DNA of 64,000 nucleotides from Sulfurimonas sp. hsl 1-7. GTDB taxonomy: Bacteria; Campylobacterota; Campylobacteria; Campylobacterales; Sulfurimonadaceae. Positions within the stretch are counted from its first letter, which is position 1; every line of letters starts with the position of its first letter. The notes under the pieces were generated by a model. That model did no database searches. It saw nothing but the letters and a program-made list of their open reading frames with translations, and was not told where the DNA came from. This document shows positions 44,327-51,597 of the stretch, one piece after another. The stretch spans positions 75,693 through 139,692 of the forward strand of contig NZ_JAUIRR010000004.1 in assembly GCF_030577135.1 (NCBI RefSeq), given 5' to 3'. The translations under genes and the position numbers were made by a program.

Positions 44327-44402
44327 GGCCTGTTAGCTCAGTCGGTAGAGCAAGTGACTGAAAATCACTGTGTCCTTGGTTCGATTCCGAGACAGGCCAC
44401 CA
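44327..44402 (+). tRNA. tRNA-Phe (GAA), copy 1
   Basis: 76 bases with encoded CCA. Acceptor stem GGCCTGT/ACAGGCC, anticodon stem AGTGA/TCACT, loop CTGAAAA with anticodon GAA, and T-loop GGTTCGATTCC. All stems pair. It is 45 bases after the membrane protein gene and exactly 100 bases before the second copy. Confidence 0.97.
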
Positions 44403-44426
44403 CTTCTTTTAAACTTTTACAATAAT

Positions 44427-44502
44427 GGCCAATTAGCTCAGTCGGTAGAGCAAGTGACTGAAAATCACTGTGTCCTTGGTTCGATTCCGAGATTGGCCAC
44501 CA
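44427..44502 (+). tRNA. tRNA-Phe (GAA), copy 2
   Basis: 76 bases with encoded CCA. Identical to copy 1 except for acceptor pairs 5 and 6: here GGCCAAT/ATTGGCC, so both partners of each pair changed together and the stem is intact. Anticodon GAA. It should be functional. Confidence 0.97.
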
Positions 44503-44588: not shown

Positions 44589-44963
44589 GGGGCTGACCTG
44601 GTTTCGACGGGATTTGGTAGCTTTTAACTGCATGTCGGACTGAGCACTTCCGTTACACGGCTCAACGCGAATAAACGCAAACAATACAAATTATCGCCCA
44701 GCTTTAGCAGTAGCTTAAGTTTTTAACCCCTCGCAAGAGGCGGGCTGCTTCACCTGTTGACTCTAGATAGGCAGGACTCGAAGTATAACCCTTATGTAGA
44801 TATATCTTGTGTCTGTCTCAGCTCAAGAAGAACCTCCGAGACTCGTCTTGTGTAGCTTTGCAAGTTGTGTGAAGCAGGATTAAACTAAACAACTTCTCTA
44901 AGCATGTAGACGTTAGGAGTAGCTGAGTTTCGGACTGCGGTTCAATTCCGCACAGCTCCACCA
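44589..44963 (+). ncRNA. ssrA: transfer-messenger RNA (tmRNA)
   Basis: 375 bases with the tRNA-Ala-like ends GGGGCTGA and the 3' TTCAATTCCGCACAGCTCCACCA (T-arm and acceptor). The tag frame runs 44677-44718 and encodes ANNTNYRPALAVA followed by TAA, with the resume codon GCA (Ala). It rescues stalled ribosomes with SmpB. The last 18 bases form one copy of the 19-bp att repeat of the adjacent island, so the integration regenerated an intact 3' end. Confidence 0.97.
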
Positions 44964-44964
44964 T
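44946..44964 (+). repeat. attL core (19-bp direct repeat, left copy)
   Basis: TTCCGCACAGCTCCACCAT, overlapping the T-arm and acceptor end of tmRNA. A perfect second copy is at 50500-50518. Confidence 0.88.
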
Positions 44965-45056
44965 CAATCAATATTTAACAATCTAACAAAATCCATATAA
45001 TAACCTAAAATAAGTACTTTAAGTCGGTTTTATTGTCTACAACTGTCTATTGATAT

Positions 45057-45138
45057 TTAGGGGTGTCTAAATTTTATAGGGGTTTTTCACGGGGTTTATG
45101 ATATCATTATCCCAACAAAGCTTTAAATAAACCCCTAA
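45057..45138 (+). repeat. left cluster of GGGGTTT arm-type repeats
   Basis: Four copies of a (T)(A)GGGGTTT-like motif: 45057-45064 (TTAGGGGT), 45077-45085 (TAGGGGTTT), 45091-45098 (GGGGTTTA), and 45129-45138 inverted (AAACCCCTAA). The inverted copy abuts the integrase ribosome site. The same motif occurs twice at the right end of the element. This is the arrangement of integrase arm-type sites. Confidence 0.55.
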
Positions 45139-45148
45139 AGGAATTTTG

Positions 45149-46411
45149 ATGGCTAGATATACAAAACCCCTAACAGTGAATGAAATTAAAAATGCACAAC
45201 CAAAAGAAAAGGACTATAAACTTTTTGATGGAGAAGGACTTTTTTTACTTATTAAAAAGAACGGTGTAAAAACTTGGAAGCTCAAATATACTTTTGAGGG
45301 AAAAGAAAAATTACTGGTTATAGGAAACTTCACAGATATTCCACTAGCAAAAGCAAGAGAGCTTAAATCAAAATATAGACAACAAATAGCAGAGGGGATC
45401 AATCCATCGGAACAGAGGCAAAACAAAAAGAAAGCCATAAAAGAAAAGCATATAGCAGAAGAAGAAAACACACGCTTTACTTTTAAAAACTTAGCCGAGC
45501 AATTACTACTAGAAAGACTTACAAATAACGATATAAGCGATGTACACTACAAAAGGATGTTAAACGCTTTTAAAAATGACGCTTACCCATTTATAGAAAA
45601 TAAACCGATAAAAAACGTTACAACAAACGATATCAAAACAATCATTACTAAAGTTGCAGAACGGGGAGCGAACGAGTCAGCAAGAAAACTCTATTATGCC
45701 CTTTCAAAAACATTTAAAACACTCATTACAAGAGATAACCCACAAAACCCCGATTATAACTATCAAATAACTAATCCTCCAGCTCCTTTAGACCTAGAAA
45801 GTTTAGTGGGTAAACGAACAAAACAGAACTACCCTACTTTTATAAAAGATAATGACATCAAAGCACTATTATTAAACATAGATGAATACACAGGCGACTA
45901 TACAACAAAACAAGCTTTAAGAATGCTCCCATATGTTTTTGTACGCCCTTATAATATTCGTTATGCAGAGTGGAACGAAATTGACTTAAAAAATAAACAA
46001 TGGACTATACCAGGGACAAAGATGAAAACTAAACACGAGTTAATCGTACCCTTAACAAATAGTGTCATTAAAATTTTAGAAGAGATGAAACCCTTTAGCG
46101 GAGATGGACAATATATATTCCCAAGTTTAAAAAATAAAAATGCCCCAATGAGTGACAACACCCTTTTAGGAGCTATAAGAAGATTAGGCTATTCAAAAGA
46201 TGAATTTGTTCCTCACGGATTTAGAGCTATGTTTTCCACTATCGCACATGAGAAAAGTCCTTTTTTACATGATGTAATTGAAACTCAATTAGCACATAGT
46301 GTAGGGAATAGTGTTTCTAAAGCATATAACAGAGCTAAATACCTCGAAGAACGTGTAAAGCTTATGCAATGGTGGAGTGACTATTTAGATGCTTTAAAGG
46401 CTAAAAAATGA
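45149..46411 (+). CDS. P4-type tyrosine integrase (DUF4102 arm-binding N terminus)
   Basis: 420 residues. The N terminus (YTKPLTVNEIKNAQ, KLFDGEGLFLLI, LGVIGNF-like KLLVIGNF, LAKARELKSKY) is the arm-type DNA-binding domain of P4/CP4 integrases, followed by a core-binding domain and a catalytic domain with Arg in FVRPYNIRYAEW, HGFRAMFSTIAHE, AHSVG and the nucleophile Tyr in SKAYNRAKY. All catalytic residues are present. The start is ATG 45149 with AAAGGA 6 bases upstream; an adjacent TTG (45146) is less likely. P4 integrases often use tRNA or tmRNA 3' ends, matching its place next to ssrA. Confidence 0.95.
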   Translation: MARYTKPLTVNEIKNAQPKEKDYKLFDGEGLFLLIKKNGVKTWKLKYTFEGKEKLLVIGNFTDIPLAKARELKSKYRQQIAEGINPSEQRQNKKKAIKEKHIAEEENTRFTFKNLAEQLLLERLTNNDISDVHYKRMLNAFKNDAYPFIENKPIKNVTTNDIKTIITKVAERGANESARKLYYALSKTFKTLITRDNPQNPDYNYQITNPPAPLDLESLVGKRTKQNYPTFIKDNDIKALLLNIDEYTGDYTTKQALRMLPYVFVRPYNIRYAEWNEIDLKNKQWTIPGTKMKTKHELIVPLTNSVIKILEEMKPFSGDGQYIFPSLKNKNAPMSDNTLLGAIRRLGYSKDEFVPHGFRAMFSTIAHEKSPFLHDVIETQLAHSVGNSVSKAYNRAKYLEERVKLMQWWSDYLDALKAKK

Positions 46412-47304
46412 ATATATTTTCTTTACCTCTGCCTAATTGTGACTTAGCAGCACGACTTATCAATGACTTTTTTAATTATTCATTGATACAAAAAAAGTCA
46501 AAGACTACTCACGATGGAAGAACAAAACTAGCACTTTCTTTTTTATCTGTTTATTGTCCTAAAGATATAAGTAGAAATTTAGTTATTCAATTTTTAGAAA
46601 GTGTGACATCCGGTTCTAGTTCTTCAAGTAAAAATAAACAGAGTTCTTTTATGCGTACGATTTTAAAATATTTATACTCTTTGGGTTACGAAAACTGTAA
46701 ATTTGAGTTACCTTATATTACAACTAATCCAAAGATACCACCTTACATTTCAGAAGATGAAATGACAAATATTTTAAATAAATACCAAAGAGCTATAAGA
46801 ACAGCTCCAAATATTTGGAAAGCTAGAAGAGATTATGCACTTTTAATTTTTGCATACGCTACGGGAATGAGAGCAACTGAAATATGTAGATTTAAAATGA
46901 GTGATTTAGATAAACAAAGCGGATTTATTAGAATTGAAAATGGCAAAGGTTCAAAAGATAGATATGTTCCAATTGCTCCAAGAGCTATACGAGCATTAGA
47001 AGAACTTTATAAATATATGCCAAGTTATTTAAAATCACTTTCTACACCCCTTTTTATTTCCGATACTTTACGAGTATTTGATAAAACAACTTTATGGATG
47101 CATTTTAAAGGAGTATTTGGATTAAATCCTCACCTGTTGCGTCACACTTTTGCAACGCATCTTATACAAAACGGTTGTGACGTATATATTGTTTCAGAGT
47201 TCTTAGGACATTCAGACCTCGCAACAACTCAAATTTATACACATATCCAGCCACAGCATCTACAAGAAACGGTTAATAAAAACTTTCCGTCAATAAATAC
47301 ATAA
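46408..47304 (+). CDS. second tyrosine recombinase (XerC/D-like)
   Basis: 298 residues with a short N-terminal SAM-like core-binding domain and an intact catalytic domain: Arg in ATGMRATEICRF, a Lys-containing beta hairpin (NGKGSKDRYVPI), HLLRHTFATHL, EFLGHSDLATTQIYTH with the Tyr nucleophile. It lacks the arm-binding domain of the first integrase. It overlaps the first integrase by 4 bases (ATGA), so both are made from one mRNA. Its role may be resolution, excision or replication-linked dimer handling, or it may act with the first enzyme. Confidence 0.93.
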   Translation: MNIFSLPLPNCDLAARLINDFFNYSLIQKKSKTTHDGRTKLALSFLSVYCPKDISRNLVIQFLESVTSGSSSSSKNKQSSFMRTILKYLYSLGYENCKFELPYITTNPKIPPYISEDEMTNILNKYQRAIRTAPNIWKARRDYALLIFAYATGMRATEICRFKMSDLDKQSGFIRIENGKGSKDRYVPIAPRAIRALEELYKYMPSYLKSLSTPLFISDTLRVFDKTTLWMHFKGVFGLNPHLLRHTFATHLIQNGCDVYIVSEFLGHSDLATTQIYTHIQPQHLQETVNKNFPSINT

Positions 47305-47745
47305 TCATCTTCTAGTTTGCCAAGATGGTTTTCTGGCTAATTGATTTTGTAAAGACATACTTACAATCTCACTAAATGTTTTTCCACTATTTATCTGCAT
47401 TTCTTCCAAACACTTAAAAGCACTAGGAGAAATATAAACTTGTAACATTTTCATCTTACGTTCTTTTTGTCTTTGAACATAAGCTCTTTGTCGTTCTGCA
47501 ACTTTCTCTAAATCTTCTTTTGATTTTTCTTTTATTTCTTTATCTTTATATTTGATATTGTATTTCTCAAAATATGAAATAAGTAATGCAGAATAAACCA
47601 ATGGAGAACTACCTTTAGCTTTCTTTCTAATAGATGCATGTTGATTTCTTGTTAAATGCGGAATTAATAACTCATACGACTTTTTTAAATGATTTAATCT
47701 TTTTTCTTTTAAAGCTTCTAAAATCTTTTGTTCATTTATATCCAT
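47305..47745 (-). CDS. small basic protein with C-terminal ribbon-helix-helix-like segment
   Basis: 146 residues. The first 100 are helical and very rich in Lys and Glu. The last 45 (MLQVYISPSAFKCLEEMQINSGKTFSEIVSMSLQNQL) look like a strand-helix-helix of the CopG/Arc type. I choose ATG 47745, with AAAGGGG 6 bases upstream, over an in-frame ATG at 47763. It meets the second recombinase tail to tail with no gap. A small CCCTA-TATT-TAGGG dyad lies upstream at 47820-47833 and may be its operator. It may be a regulator or DNA-binding accessory factor. Confidence 0.62.
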   Translation of the reverse strand: MDINEQKILEALKEKRLNHLKKSYELLIPHLTRNQHASIRKKAKGSSPLVYSALLISYFEKYNIKYKDKEIKEKSKEDLEKVAERQRAYVQRQKERKMKMLQVYISPSAFKCLEEMQINSGKTFSEIVSMSLQNQLARKPSWQTRR

Positions 47746-47905
47746 AGTAAACCCCTTTATCATTGAATTTATACTTTTATTCTAAAAAACACCGTTATAA
47801 TATGATGATTTTTTTATAGCCCTATATTTAGGGATTTATTTAACCTTTTTCCTTTTATCGGTAAACTTTTGTTAATTTGACTAGACGCTCGGCTCAGCCT
47901 CGCTA

Positions 47906-47964
47906 AATTTCCTCGCTTACTCGTTCCTCGCTAATGCGCTCGTCTCTCGATCGCTGAGGAAATT
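47906..47964. repeat. GC-rich segment with 9-bp inverted repeat
   Basis: AATTTCCTC (47906-47914) and GAGGAAATT (47956-47964) enclose 41 bases rich in CTCG/CGCT units. The segment is far more GC-rich than the surrounding island DNA and contains the last codons of the 105-residue gene. Confidence 0.5.
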
Positions 47965-48234
47965 CTGTCCGTTAAAGATAAAATATGTATATGAATCAGG
48001 ACAAGACAAAACAATATTTTCAATCGCTAGCGTATATTGATTTTTATTTACATCTAATTTATATAAATTTGCAAATACTTTTGGATAACCATAATATGGA
48101 GGACGGCCAATTAATTCGCCAAATGTTTTCCCTTGAACTTTTGTAATATGAGCTATAACTTTACTCCAAATATCACTTGAAATAAAAAAGCCCGTTTTAT
48201 TTCCATTATCCACATACGCTTGATAAATATTCAT
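47917..48234 (-). CDS. unknown 105-residue island protein
   Basis: I do not recognise it. It has mixed polar and aromatic residues with no TM and no obvious motif (MNIYQAYVDNGNKTGFFISS). Its start overlaps the HTH protein end by 4 bases, so the two are translationally coupled. The last 11 residues (DRETSALARNE) are encoded by a GC-rich, CTCG-repetitive patch unlike the rest of the gene, suggesting that the original C terminus was replaced by insertion of a small repeat. Confidence 0.55.
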   Translation of the reverse strand: MNIYQAYVDNGNKTGFFISSDIWSKVIAHITKVQGKTFGELIGRPPYYGYPKVFANLYKLDVNKNQYTLAIENIVLSCPDSYTYFIFNGQNFLSDRETSALARNE

Positions 48235-48893
48235 AATTCTATATCCTTTAATTGTGCTATTTCATCATTTTGGAATTTAGTATAAAGATAGTTCCATATC
48301 TCATAACTATCTTCTTTAGTTAAAAGACGATTAGAAACAGTATTAAAAATCTTTCCATCTTGTATAGTAAAAACAGTATCACTACGCCAACTTAAATCAC
48401 TTATAGTAAACCCCTCACTAAATTCATTAATAAAAATATCCCTAAAATGATCAAAAGAAATCTTCTTCTTAGAAGTAGTTTTAGTATTACTTCTTTTAGT
48501 ATTGTTTCCTATAGTATTACTAGTAGTTGCGTTTTCCGAGTTGGAAAAACCGAGTTGGTTTTCCCGAGTTGAGTTTCTAAACTTGGACGGGTTTTTCGAA
48601 GTTTTAGGCTCTAAATGCAATATGTATTTATTAGTTTGAAATCGTCCATTAACTCGTGACTGAACTTTTGTAAGATATCCACAACTTGAAAGTTCATCAA
48701 TTATATTTAAAATTGCATTCCGACCCTCTTTTAATTGACTTTGTAAACCACTAAGTTTAAAATCCCACTTATCAGGTTTAGAGACCATAAACGTATAAAG
48801 ACCTTTTGCTTTACAAGAAACGTTTAAATCATTTAAAATATTATTTGGAACTTGTGTAAAGTTAGTATTAAAATCTTTCTCAAGAATGCCCAT
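48231..48893 (-). CDS. HTH replication-initiation-like protein
   Basis: 220 residues. The N-terminal 85 residues form a winged-helix-like region (FTQVPNNILNDLNVSCKAKGLY, LQSQLKEGRNAILNIIDELSSCGYLTKVQ) of the type found at the front of plasmid and phage replication initiators and DnaD-like proteins. A Thr/Asn/Ser/Lys-rich linker (about 120-145) leads to a C-terminal domain of unknown fold. In this island, with an AlpA gene upstream, a role in element replication or gene control is likely but not shown. Confidence 0.62.
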   Translation of the reverse strand: MGILEKDFNTNFTQVPNNILNDLNVSCKAKGLYTFMVSKPDKWDFKLSGLQSQLKEGRNAILNIIDELSSCGYLTKVQSRVNGRFQTNKYILHLEPKTSKNPSKFRNSTRENQLGFSNSENATTSNTIGNNTKRSNTKTTSKKKISFDHFRDIFINEFSEGFTISDLSWRSDTVFTIQDGKIFNTVSNRLLTKEDSYEIWNYLYTKFQNDEIAQLKDIEL

Positions 48894-48906
48894 TACTTAC
48901 CTTTCA

Positions 48907-49077
48907 CTATATAGCTTGTTGTATATATTCCAAGATATCAGACTCTTTCCAAACTGTTACACGTGGAGAAAGTTTTTTAGGTTGTGGGAGCTTTCCTTGT
49001 TTGACCCAAAGCCACACAGTACTTTTTTTAATGCCTACTAAATCCATTACTTGATTTATTCTGATTAACTTGTCCAT
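48907..49077 (-). CDS. AlpA-family excisionase/regulator
   Basis: 56 residues, a single MerR-like helix-turn-helix: KLIRINQVMDLVGIKKSTVW, WVKQGKLPQPKKLSP and a C-terminal WKESDILEYIQQAI helix, the full pattern of AlpA/prophage excisionase proteins. The start may be ATG 49077 or 49080; GG/AAGG spacing favours 49077. AlpA proteins control integrase or excise P4-like elements. It is the first gene of the island's minus-strand operon (AlpA, HTH protein, unknown). Confidence 0.85.
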   Translation of the reverse strand: MDKLIRINQVMDLVGIKKSTVWLWVKQGKLPQPKKLSPRVTVWKESDILEYIQQAI

Positions 49078-49251
49078 CATTAAACCTTTTTGTGTTGTGT
49101 TAGACGAATGTTAAAATTATCGCATTGAAGTTGAACTGAACTTGTCCAATAAATTTAATAGTAAGGCTTTGAAAACATCGAGTTTATGGGGAATAATTTT
49201 ATAAAAAGTTGTCCAAAACAAAAACAACGAAAAAAAGCGATGAATATTTTT

Positions 49252-49275
49252 AGCAGCATATTAAAATATGATGCT
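49252..49275. repeat. inverted repeat in the island control region
   Basis: 11-base arms AGCAGCATATT and AATATGATGCT with one mismatch and an AA centre. This is a likely regulator-binding dyad, with AlpA or the HTH protein as candidate ligand. Confidence 0.45.
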
Positions 49276-49474
49276 AAACCACAACGATCGAATGTTGTTA
49301 AAATTCACACTTTTTGTCTATTAAACACGCTAAACTGACAGATAAGTTATTTTGATTTATTAGGAGAATAGAATTTGAATATATAATATATAGTGTATTA
49401 TTTACACACTTTTAAATTAATAATATTTTTTATAAGCTAATTTATATGAAATATGATATTATCCTTTATTCAGT

Positions 49475-49493
49475 GTGAAACATCGTGAAACAT
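49475..49493 (+). repeat. tandem GTGAAACAT direct repeat
   Basis: Two GTGAAACAT copies with one base between them, 137 bases upstream of the antitoxin-like start. The 10-base spacing puts both on the same DNA face, as in operators or iterons. Confidence 0.4.
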
Positions 49494-49629
49494 TTAAAGA
49501 GTGTTTTTTGTATTCATATCTTTAAATTTTTTATAAAATGTCGATATTTGTAACACGTATTCTGTAAAATTCAATATATATGAAGCTTTAAAGAATATAA
49601 TTCGACAATTTTTTCAGGAGGTGGTAATT

Positions 49630-50109
49630 ATGGTTGCATCAACTTATGCTAATAACAGTAGTATTACACTACCATCCTTTAATGTTCAAGAAACTTTAAA
49701 AAGCATTGTAGATTCTATTTTTGAGTATACAGAGAAACAAGCTCTTAAAAGAGAATTACAAAACATTGAAAAAAATGTAATTGCTTTAACTTCGAAAGTT
49801 CACGATTCAAATGCAAAATGTGAAGCAATTCGTGACTTTATCGAAATATATCATATAAATGATATTGAAGCAGACCAAATAATTCTTAATGAAGTAAATG
49901 AAACTGTCTTAGAGCTAAAAGATGAAATTGAAGATGTTCTAGAACGTGAAGATATACATCAAATAGATAAAACTTTTCAATCAACTCTTCTAAATGCATT
50001 TGAAGAATTGTATTCAACACTTGTAAATATAGATTTTGCAATATCTCAAAAAATAGCACAGGCTTATCTTGACGGTAAAAGCGACCCAGAACTTCTTCAA
50101 GAAGCGTGA
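49630..50109 (+). CDS. all-helical protein, putative antitoxin of a toxin-antitoxin pair
   Basis: 159 residues, strongly acidic in the middle (LKDEIEDVLEREDIHQ) and helical throughout, with no recognised DNA-binding fold. I chose ATG 49630 (MVASTYANNSS), which has an excellent SD (AGGAGGTGG) about 8 bases upstream; an in-frame GTG at 49621 lies inside that SD. Its last 41 bases overlap the start of a RelE/ParE-like gene. Order and overlap are typical of antitoxin-toxin operons, but the sequence does not match antitoxin families I know. Its size is larger than usual. Confidence 0.6.
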   Translation: MVASTYANNSSITLPSFNVQETLKSIVDSIFEYTEKQALKRELQNIEKNVIALTSKVHDSNAKCEAIRDFIEIYHINDIEADQIILNEVNETVLELKDEIEDVLEREDIHQIDKTFQSTLLNAFEELYSTLVNIDFAISQKIAQAYLDGKSDPELLQEA

Positions 50110-50425
50110 TCGACTAATAACTAAAGGAATTATAACTTTAGAGGAATATGAAAAGACTCTAAAGTTATATAAAAAGAATCCTAACGATCCAAAAATAAGA
50201 CCTCATAAAATAAACTGTAAAAAAAATCATCATATAGTATCTATCACAATACCTGACACTCAAATCAGAATTTTGATTAATATAAAAGCTTGTGATTCTA
50301 CTTCTATTTCTATTTGTTCCTGGATTGGAAAACATAGAGAATATGAGCGAATTATAAAAGATCAAAGAAATTGTAAATCTATATTTATAAATTGTGATGA
50401 GATAAATAATTTAATAGATGAATAA
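50069..50425 (+). CDS. RelE/ParE-superfamily toxin-like protein
   Basis: 118 residues. The start (VKATQNFFKKRDRLI), the ITLEEYEKTLKLYKKNPNDPKIRPHKIN helix-turn-strand and the later ISITIPDTQIRILINI and ICSWIGKHREYERII beta strands and end motif fit the YafQ/RelE toxin fold. The best start is TTG 50069; there is no in-frame ATG. It overlaps the preceding gene by 41 bases. Charged residues Arg, His and Lys near the C terminus (GKHREYE) are candidate mRNA-cleavage residues. It may inhibit translation; the fold call is by pattern only. Confidence 0.62.
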   Translation: MTVKATQNFFKKRDRLITKGIITLEEYEKTLKLYKKNPNDPKIRPHKINCKKNHHIVSITIPDTQIRILINIKACDSTSISICSWIGKHREYERIIKDQRNCKSIFINCDEINNLIDE

Positions 50426-50432
50426 TAATCAA

Positions 50433-50453
50433 TAGGGGTTTATTTAGGGGTTT
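50433..50453 (+). repeat. right cluster of GGGGTTT arm-type repeats
   Basis: Two TAGGGGTTT copies (50433-50441 and 50445-50453), 47 bases inside the right att core. They match the left-end repeats. Confidence 0.55.
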
Positions 50454-50499
50454 TATTTTAAAAATTTTATTCTAAACACTTTATTTTAGTTAAGTAAAG

Positions 50500-50518
50500 T
50501 TCCGCACAGCTCCACCAT
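50500..50518 (+). repeat. attR core (19-bp direct repeat, right copy)
   Basis: TTCCGCACAGCTCCACCAT, identical to the left copy in ssrA. The flanking bases differ on both sides, so this is a discrete 19-bp repeat. Confidence 0.88.
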
Positions 50519-50597
50519 TTCTATTTAATTTTACACCTTCAAATTTCAAAAGTACAATATTTTAAATTAATTTTTTCTAAGCTTTAGCTCTTAATAC
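50508..50597 (+). repeat. 90-bp repeat A (att end plus flank)
   Basis: Begins with the AGCTCCACCAT end of the att core and continues TTTCTATTTAATTTTACACC... to TTAATAC. It is nearly identical to 51427-51517, with a handful of mismatches and one-base indels, 919 bases downstream in the same direction. Confidence 0.82.
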
Positions 50598-50638
50598 ATT
50601 TTGTTATAATATGAAAAATTATTATAATGAGTGAGTAG

Positions 50639-51373
50639 ATGGAACAAATAATTGCCAGTTTTAAAGAATTTTTAGATTCAAGAGTTAAAAATATGTTTTT
50701 TATGAATTTTGTTTTTGCATGGATAATTATTAATTACAATATTACATTACGACTAGCTTTTAGTTCTGAAACAATCCAAGAAAAAATATCCTTTTTAAAT
50801 AAGTTAGAATTCTCATGGTGGAGTTATATATTTTTTCCTCTTTCAATAGCACTTCTTTATATTTATCTTATCCCACTAATTAACCTTGGTATAGTTAAAT
50901 TATATGATTCTTATATTCATTATTGGATTAAGGAACATGAGCATCAAAAACGTATTCAAAGTTTTCTACATAAAAAGAAAGAAGAAGAAGCACGACACAA
51001 TGCTGTTACTTTCGTAAAAAGAGATATGGAACAGCAAAAAAAAGTAGAAGAAAATAATGAAAAGCAACGTGCTATAGATTTAGAAAAAGAAATAATTAAA
51101 GTTTTAGAATACAAAAAGAATCTTGAGCAACAAAAAATTAATGACAAAACAAAAGAACTACAAAATGAGATTAAAAATTTAAAAAGTAGAAATGAAAATT
51201 TAATAGACCATTTCAAAGCTTTACAATCCACTTTAGAAAGAATAGACCTAGTATTATCCATGACTGAAGGAGCCGATAATGAATTAACTAATAGCTTATC
51301 TAAACGTATTTCAGAGCTAAAAAATGCTATTGATGTAGCTTTGGAAACAACTACTAATCTACAAGAAAAATAA
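50639..51373 (+). CDS. two-TM membrane protein with long cytoplasmic coiled coil
   Basis: 244 residues. TM helices at about 19-41 and 60-90, with the sequence SRVKNMFFMNFVFAWIIIN at the front; then about 150 residues of Lys/Glu/Gln-rich coiled coil (100-205) and a last helix (215-240). From memory the N-terminal layout resembles a widespread, uncharacterised membrane family whose members start with SRxKN followed by two TM helices. It has no enzymatic motif. Being a lone cargo gene between att-like repeats, it may be a fitness or phage-defence gene (inference only). Confidence 0.62.
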   Translation: MEQIIASFKEFLDSRVKNMFFMNFVFAWIIINYNITLRLAFSSETIQEKISFLNKLEFSWWSYIFFPLSIALLYIYLIPLINLGIVKLYDSYIHYWIKEHEHQKRIQSFLHKKKEEEARHNAVTFVKRDMEQQKKVEENNEKQRAIDLEKEIIKVLEYKKNLEQQKINDKTKELQNEIKNLKSRNENLIDHFKALQSTLERIDLVLSMTEGADNELTNSLSKRISELKNAIDVALETTTNLQEK

Positions 51374-51426
51374 CTTAGGAGGTATTAATAGACTTCCTAT
51401 ATATTAGGCATAAGGTAATTTCACGT

Positions 51427-51517
51427 AGCTCCACCATTTCTATTAAATTTCACACCTTCAAAATCCAAAAGTACAATATTTTAAAATTAATTTTTTCTAA
51501 GCTTTGGCTCTTAGTAT
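51427..51517 (+). repeat. 91-bp repeat B (degenerate att end plus flank)
   Basis: Second copy of repeat A. The core is present only as AGCTCCACCAT; the TTCCGCAC half is degenerate (TTTCACGT). The chromosome-like flank (TTTCTATTAAATTTCACACC and onwards) is preserved and runs into core genes. Confidence 0.8.
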
Positions 51518-51597
51518 CTTCTTATAAATAAATCTTATAAATTAAAAGCATACTATATTTAGTTACATGTGAGGTAGATAGAAAAAAAGGATACTTC

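Follow-up and report, generated by a model that had tools for sequence, protein, structure and literature searches.

What occupies the DNA directly beyond ssrA, the gene for transfer-messenger RNA (tmRNA), in Sulfurimonas sp. hsl 1-7, and what is a second recombinase gene doing at the end of an integrase gene there? We analysed a stretch of 64,000 nucleotides (nt) of this genome (contig NZ_JAUIRR010000004.1, positions 75,693 to 139,692), referred to below as the window. From our comparisons, we conclude that the 5.5-kb block following ssrA is an integrative element at a common ssrA hotspot, and we consider it likely that it is a small, probably helper-dependent, satellite-like element living in the 3' end of that gene. 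The element is of a known kind; what is new is the second recombinase, Int2, joined to the integrase, Int1. The features needed to follow this argument are:

44589–44963, forward strand: ssrA (tmRNA), whose 3' end is the integration target (ARAGORN; Rfam RF00023, 2.8e-60)
44946–44964, forward strand: attL core, 19 bp (exact repeat)
45149–46411, forward strand: Int1, P4-type tyrosine integrase of 420 amino acids (aa), ATG at 45149 (Pfam; catalytic motifs intact by eye)
46408–47304, forward strand: Int2, Xer-like tyrosine recombinase, 298 aa (PF00589, 2.5e-34; catalytic motifs intact by eye)
50500–50518, forward strand: attR core, 19 bp (exact repeat)

ARAGORN and Rfam agree on the boundaries of ssrA at 44589–44963, and the tag encoded by the tmRNA is ANNTNYRPALAVA. 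The direct repeat TTCCGCACAGCTCCACCAT is identical over 19 bp at 44946–44964 and 50500–50518, and the attL core consists of the last 18 bases of ssrA plus one T. None of 300 first-order Markov sequences of the region contained a 19-bp repeat, the longest exact repeat there being 17 bp. The block between the cores has a GC content of 29.6%, against 37.7% for the window outside 44589–51597, and holds eight main genes in about 5.5 kb, with Int1 first. A preliminary description of this locus had proposed site-specific integration into the 3' end of ssrA by a P4-type integrase with visible attachment (att) sites, pointing to a perfect 19-bp direct repeat around an AT-rich block that begins with such an integrase. 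The tmRNA call, the exact cores, the base composition and the three Pfam domains of Int1 (Arm-DNA-bind_3, 3.9e-22; Phage_int_M, 1.2e-10; Phage_integrase, 3.7e-18) bear this out. Its gene inventory was right about the integrase, AlpA and a gene pair, but overlooked Int2, an initiator-like gene (48231–48893) and a tandem unit to the right of attR.

The ssrA gene is a hotspot in the genus. Among 110 genomes drawn, 99 had an ssrA match, and 24 of these 99 (both figures including the window genome) have a P4-family integrase, whole or as remnants, in the 600 bp past ssrA, in 23 cases at 159–238 bp. This count compared the 48 integrase and 26 ssrA matches that could share a contig and leaves out genome G012, where the integrase lies 1.8 kb beyond a tandem unit; it is a lower bound, because contigs ending just past ssrA cannot show an integrase. 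In a downstream scan, from which 8 of 30 loci were dropped as too short, an integrase match was found in 7 of the 22 ssrA loci that retained 500 bp or more downstream, the window genome counted; one of these matches (E = 0.00083) lay on the other strand and one scored 2e-8.

The preliminary description had proposed a search for empty sites, and for this family of islands they exist. Genome G152 has an island bounded by two 18-bp cores 10,773 bp apart, and G011 a single core; over 2302 bp, the right flank of G152 and the G011 sequence past its core share 95.8% identity, with an exact join at the core. A single core was likewise found in all ten ssrA loci lacking a same-strand Int1-family match nearby (7–19 kb downstream compared), although these are not all necessarily virgin sites, since G024 has a marginal match on the opposite strand and G032 island-like left-end sequence. 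A second core with at most 3 mismatches of 18 was present in five of ten integrase-bearing loci, and one of the other five has only 3.6 kb of downstream sequence. An identical block in all relatives, or the absence of the core from them, had been named as signs against an inserted element. The core is present in relatives, and no identical block was found: among the 110 genomes of the genus, the best full-length relative of Int1 is 60% identical and partial relatives reach 69%. The nearest relative found, G031, has an ssrA that is 98% identical, but there the same core is occupied by another island, of 10.9 kb, which indicates that the site turns over. In a DNA search of 135 genomes with the right flank of the element, the matches listed beyond the window genome itself were headed by G031 (1.2e-15), followed by G017 (6.1e-7 over 50 bases) and then short AT-rich pieces.

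Islands at ssrA are thus ordinary, and the interest of the locus rests on Int2. The stop codon of int1 and the start codon of int2 overlap in the sequence ATGA. Int2 scores 4.6e-48 and 2.2e-46 against the PRK00283 and XerD models, short of both model cutoffs. In the Vibrio element PICMI115, an integrase-overlapping gene (iolg) also overlaps int by ATGA and is required for excision, and 13 families of int-overlapping or contiguous genes have been described, all of unknown function (PMC10803314). The word 'recombinase' occurs 0 times in that paper, and we found no mention there of recombinase activity for iolg. In the window, the iolg-like position is occupied by a tyrosine recombinase. At 8 of 20 loci carrying Int1 relatives, int overlaps by 1–11 nt with a gene of at least 60 aa, the overlap being 4 nt in four; seven of the eight proteins were scanned with Pfam (L091, L092, L100, L101, L102, L107 and L110, leaving out that of L106), and none had a recombinase domain, while that of L110 matched a helix-turn-helix (HTH) family. 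In a wider set, an overlapping gene (at most 25 nt of overlap, at least 60 aa) was found at only 17 of 143 loci and is therefore not the rule in the wider Int1 family.

A second recombinase within 2.5 kb was found at none of the 143 other loci carrying Int1 relatives, ssrA islands among them. The scan took in 160 loci (the best 80 of at least 228 and the best 80 of at least 94), of which 143 had at least 1.5 kb past the integrase, and its single match, at L248, was the C-terminal half of a broken Int1. A control profile built without Int1 and the three element-borne recombinases (Int2 and its two closest relatives) still recovered all three, so that the scan could have detected Int2-like genes. 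The second recombinase gene is absent from the related islands examined. In the open-access literature, with subscription journals mostly outside the search, we found no report of ssrA islands in Sulfurimonas or of a recombinase at the iolg position; a Sulfurimonas prophage, SNW-1, has reportedly been described (PMC11290706).

The two closest relatives of Int2 in 398 genomes of the order are encoded in G160 (41% identity) and G005 (38%), each within an apparent island at tRNA-Ser. Both islands have the order integrase, a gene overlapping the integrase by 8 nt, a small HTH-like gene, the Int2-like gene, a gene of 174–183 aa and a DnaB-like gene; the last matches Pfam DnaB and DUF3987 in G005 and was assigned by eye in G160. 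In a tree of 25 rows, Int2 and the G005 and G160 recombinases split from 22 other recombinases at 99/100 support, which is suggestive of a common branch. Against plasmids (at least 5000 records) and phages (1128), Int2 gave distant matches only, all below 60% identity and, where annotated, mostly XerD/XerC or integrases. Scans of viral contigs and genome contigs seeded by short exact peptide patterns, which detect close relatives only, gave no close relative of Int2.

The remaining features of the element and of its right-hand neighbour are:

45057–45172, no strand assigned: candidate integrase arm-type sites near attL, AGGGG/CCCCT boxes at 45059, 45078, 45132 and 45167 (presumed role)
47305–47763, reverse strand: orphan of 147–152 aa, perhaps a ribbon-helix-helix regulator (RepA-regulator-like C-terminus, E = 0.0031, under the cutoff)
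47917–48234, reverse strand: 105-aa orphan protein, function unknown (family matches at chance level only, best E = 0.037)
48231–48893, reverse strand: DnaD/phage replication-initiator-like protein, 220 aa (PHROG replication/DNA-binding families, best 1.1e-14)
48907–49080, reverse strand: AlpA, 57 aa, putative excisionase/regulator (PF05930, 4e-11)
49081–49620, no strand: non-coding AT-rich region of 540 bp, candidate replication origin (presumed role), with an imperfect palindrome at 49249–49278
49630–50109, forward strand: p159, putative antitoxin (open reading frame, ORF, upstream of p118 relatives)
50069–50425, forward strand: p118, putative RelE/ParE/YafQ-like toxin (TTG start; 41-nt overlap with p159)
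50433–50453, forward strand: candidate arm-type sites near attR, two TAGGGGTTT boxes (motif count; presumed role)
50519–51437, forward strand: second, integrase-less tandem unit of 0.9 kb (copy of the ssrA-distal flank, p244, third core)
50639–51373, forward strand: p244 ORF (phrog_4780, 2.4e-10, function unknown)
51419–51437, forward strand: degenerate third core (4 mismatches of 18)

The AlpA gene named in the preliminary description is confirmed by its Pfam match. In the adjacent initiator-like protein, Pfam finds HTH_36 at 0.015 and nothing else; one of its relatives lies in an inovirus-like provirus and one in a satellite-like island. The provirus (L160, in G163, C29) holds the best relative and also encodes a Zot-like family protein and a nicking-protein-like gene. 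The initiator-like protein matched 130 plasmid records, none spanning 80% of the query, and neither it nor p244 had a close relative in viral contigs in the peptide-pattern scans. No relative of the 147–152-aa orphan was found when 135 genomes of the genus were searched, the window genome and 134 others. The C-terminus of the 105-aa protein is encoded within an unusually GC-rich stretch; this stretch (47884–47965), with a AATTTCCTC/GAGGAAATT inverted repeat, covers the end of the gene inside an element of 30% GC, and no match to it was found beyond its own genome in 960,214 bases of compared loci.

The region 49081–49620 separates the divergent alpA from the p159/p118 pair. That this pair is toxin-antitoxin-like, as the preliminary description held, stands in part: it is a recurring two-gene unit, but toxin-family scores are weak and confined to relatives. 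At all six loci opened, the p118 relative is immediately preceded by an ORF of 127–158 aa. The product of this ORF has clear similarity to p159 at two of the loci (43% and 33%) and marginal similarity at one more (E = 0.009), but none that we could recognise at the other three. A p118 match occurs in 48 of 298 genomes of the order, the window genome counted, and some of these relatives match ParE_like (5.6e-5) or YafQ_toxin (0.0012), both under the curated cutoffs. Pfam gave no match for p118 itself, nor ParE_like or YafQ_toxin for its closest relative (L198). Against the PDB, toxin chains appeared at E = 0.75–0.99 only, outranked by unrelated chains; a single-sequence AlphaFold model (predicted local distance difference test score, pLDDT, 51) was too poor for use, and no plasmid matched p118. 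We treat p159/p118 as a putative toxin-antitoxin-like, addiction-like pair.

The 64-kb window contains five copies of TAGGGGTTT or its complement, all inside the element: three lie near attL, one of them just inside int1 (45077+, 45129−, 45164−), and two near attR (50433+, 50445+). The AGGGG/CCCCT boxes of the window stand at +95, +114, +168 and +203 from the end of ssrA. Boxes at about +114, +125 and +168 also occur at seven further ssrA loci that bear an integrase, with +114 and +168 agreeing within 2 nt; the comparison comprised 45 rows, in which some genomes are represented twice. We read the boxes as candidate arm-type sites of Int1.

Past attR comes a stretch of about 80 bp similar to the ssrA-distal flank, followed by p244, the third core and the flank again; the two core-plus-flank copies are identical at 90 of 104 aligned positions. 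For p244, one weak relative was found in the other 134 of the 135 genomes. The most plausible origin of the unit is an earlier insertion, in tandem, at the same core. An integron-like reading, suggested by one gene between repeats and by an integron-integrase-like Int2, was dropped because the repeat is ssrA flank plus a decayed core; no dedicated attC search was made.

From these parts, a cycle can be proposed in which Int1, with AlpA as excisionase, would recombine the two 18–19-bp cores, releasing a circle and leaving a single-core ssrA. The circle would replicate through the 220-aa initiator and, after carriage by a phage or a conjugative helper, re-enter the ssrA of a new cell; Int2 would be translated from the end of int1. 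The 0.9-kb unit would no longer move, unless an ssrA-specific integrase acted on it in trans. Excision and transfer of the element are predictions. As to Int2, the role that we consider most likely, and hold tentatively, is to resolve multimers or concatemers formed as the circle replicates. We lean this way because the G005 and G160 islands keep an overlapping gene of their own and place the Int2-like gene near a replication gene, and the proximity of a DnaB/DUF3987 gene fits a role tied to replication. Ranked second, and in our view doubtful, is a role for Int2 as a partner within the Int1 excision complex, by analogy with PICMI iolg.

Several observations weigh against this picture. Comparison of 50 ssrA loci revealed no empty site carrying the right flank seen in the window, which leaves the proposed search for empty sites successful for the family but not for this element. 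The only helper search made, in the host genome with phrog_2, which we take to be the terminase large subunit, gave no match; this family also matches 11 of 14 controls and is not a clean probe. Box spacing of the kind described above was missing from 10 other integrase-bearing ssrA loci, G031 included. No resolution site was found for Int2: the sole intergenic palindrome (49249–49278), considered as a dif-like site and rejected, was within shuffle range, with five 11-bp-arm matches observed, three of them from this palindrome, against a mean of 1.8 and a maximum of 8 in 60 Markov sequences. The grouping of Int2 with the G005 and G160 recombinases weakens to 93/69 in a 53-row tree that includes Int1, and the Int2 branch is very long (5.5 changes per column in that tree, 6.1 in the 25-row tree), which is why we call the grouping suggestive only. 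Finally, the coupling of Int2 is to int1 instead of the replication genes, a point in favour of the excision-partner role.

A different account of the locus makes integration and excision at the ssrA att sites the joint work of Int1 and Int2, a two-recombinase system with Int2 in the iolg slot. This seems to us rather doubtful. The ATGA overlap resembles that of int and iolg in PICMIs, overlapping genes occur at 8 of the 20 Int1-relative loci of the smaller set, and several recombinases acting together have precedents in GInts (PMC5385486), SEs (PMC9345347) and the DsiA/DsiB proposal for Dehalococcoides (PMC3146451). However, the lack of a second recombinase at 143 other loci, ssrA islands included, means that Int1-type integration at ssrA is not generally in need of one; the G005 and G160 islands have a distinct int-overlapping gene in addition to the Int2-like one, and we found no mention of recombinase activity for iolg in the PICMI report. 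The fuller proposition that Int1 and Int2 are co-translated, with a Xer-like recombinase in the iolg slot, and that ssrA excision, perhaps also concatemer resolution, uses two tyrosine recombinases, we regard as unlikely. Were a two-recombinase system real, it would give the unexplained iolg position a concrete biochemical role. In PICMI115, the overlapping gene is needed for excision and its role is an open question there (PMC10803314); here, the position holds an enzyme of known chemistry, so that the question can be reduced to a deletion and complementation test. The overlapping gene is the part of the locus most deserving of specialist attention.

It is quite improbable that the island has decayed, its genes persisting in an element fixed in the strain and no longer mobile. 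Judging from the third core and the 0.9-kb unit, old insertions at this site may decay in place, and broken integrases follow ssrA in relatives such as G027 and G166, but Int1, Int2, AlpA and the initiator-like gene are intact frames in the window and its main cores are identical over 19 bp. Least probable of all is an integrative mobilizable element with a conjugative instead of a phage helper. Capsid or terminase matches were absent from the ORFs of the element, as this account would have it. General family scans of the eight main ORFs and p244 gave no match to structural genes, but none to a relaxase either (the origin of transfer, oriT, was not searched), both in agreement with the preliminary description; and the ssrA island of G031 encodes a terminase small subunit (phrog_51, 4.7e-12), which points to helper phages for one or more of the islands at this site. 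We retain the small, satellite-like, probably helper-dependent element as the likely reading.

Among known systems, the element is a member of the broad kind of tmRNA and tRNA genomic islands (Islander, PMC4383910), whose ends are marked by an integrase and a 3' fragment of the target gene; the tmRNA gene is more enriched as an island target than any tRNA type. The window has an integrase beside the 3' end of such a gene and the displaced 3' fragment as a direct repeat, and we see no essential difference. With PICMIs of Vibrionaceae (PMC10803314), it shares a size of about 6 kb (6,110 bp in PICMI115), the ATGA-overlapping gene, AlpA, a replication gene and the absence of capsid genes. Membership was rejected on two grounds: PICMIs lie next to fis and the window element in ssrA, and int and alpA are present but none of the eight main ORFs matched a DUF3987/DUF5906 primase. 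The overlapping gene also differs in being a tyrosine recombinase. Gram-negative PICIs (PMC6092414) likewise have int, AlpA, a replication gene, a specific att site and no structural genes, a gene set found in the window element with an initiator recognised by PHROG similarity only; it differs in lacking a terS match, although some PICIs also lack terS, and in having two recombinases. The Dehalococcoides ssrA islands (PMC3146451) are similar in being tandem, in having 20-bp ssrA repeats, in sometimes lacking an integration module and in carrying two recombinases on a putative operon, which are serine enzymes there and tyrosine enzymes here. GInts (PMC5385486) and SEs (PMC9345347) share more than one tyrosine recombinase at one element end. 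The element was nevertheless assigned to neither: ginABCD comprises three recombinases and GinD against two recombinases in the window, and SEs have the plan intA-CDS2-intB-CDS4 with imperfect inverted C/C' ends, whereas the window has direct cores and no CDS2; inverted terminal repeats were covered by the general repeat search only.

The surroundings of ssrA vary among relatives. Two tandem tRNA-Phe genes (44327–44502), in 100-bp units that are 87% identical, precede ssrA in the window, and many relatives have one or two tRNA-Phe genes in this position. Genome G031 holds two satellite-like islands, at ssrA (L091) and at tRNA-Met (L161), which by eye share a terminase-small-subunit-like gene and its neighbours; only the L091 copy was scanned. 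Between the former island and msrP (L091, 11495–12343), G031 has a gene of 282 aa, which we take to be TraB/GumN-like, with no counterpart in the window at 51438–51597. G012 has two ssrA copies (C1:1470613–1470972 and 1495909–1496283; L125, L110, L196). In G012, G074 (C321, L195) and G027 (C244, L194), the first ssrA matches only to about position 359–360, its 3' end being altered or missing. A second ssrA with an intact 3' end lies downstream in G012 and G074; in G027, the first copy runs into the contig end and only a 3' piece is found, on another contig. Such duplicates may reflect islands that bring their own ssrA. Together, the tandem unit of the window and the relatives with two ssrA copies offer a natural archive of DNA repeatedly captured, and then decaying, at a single site.

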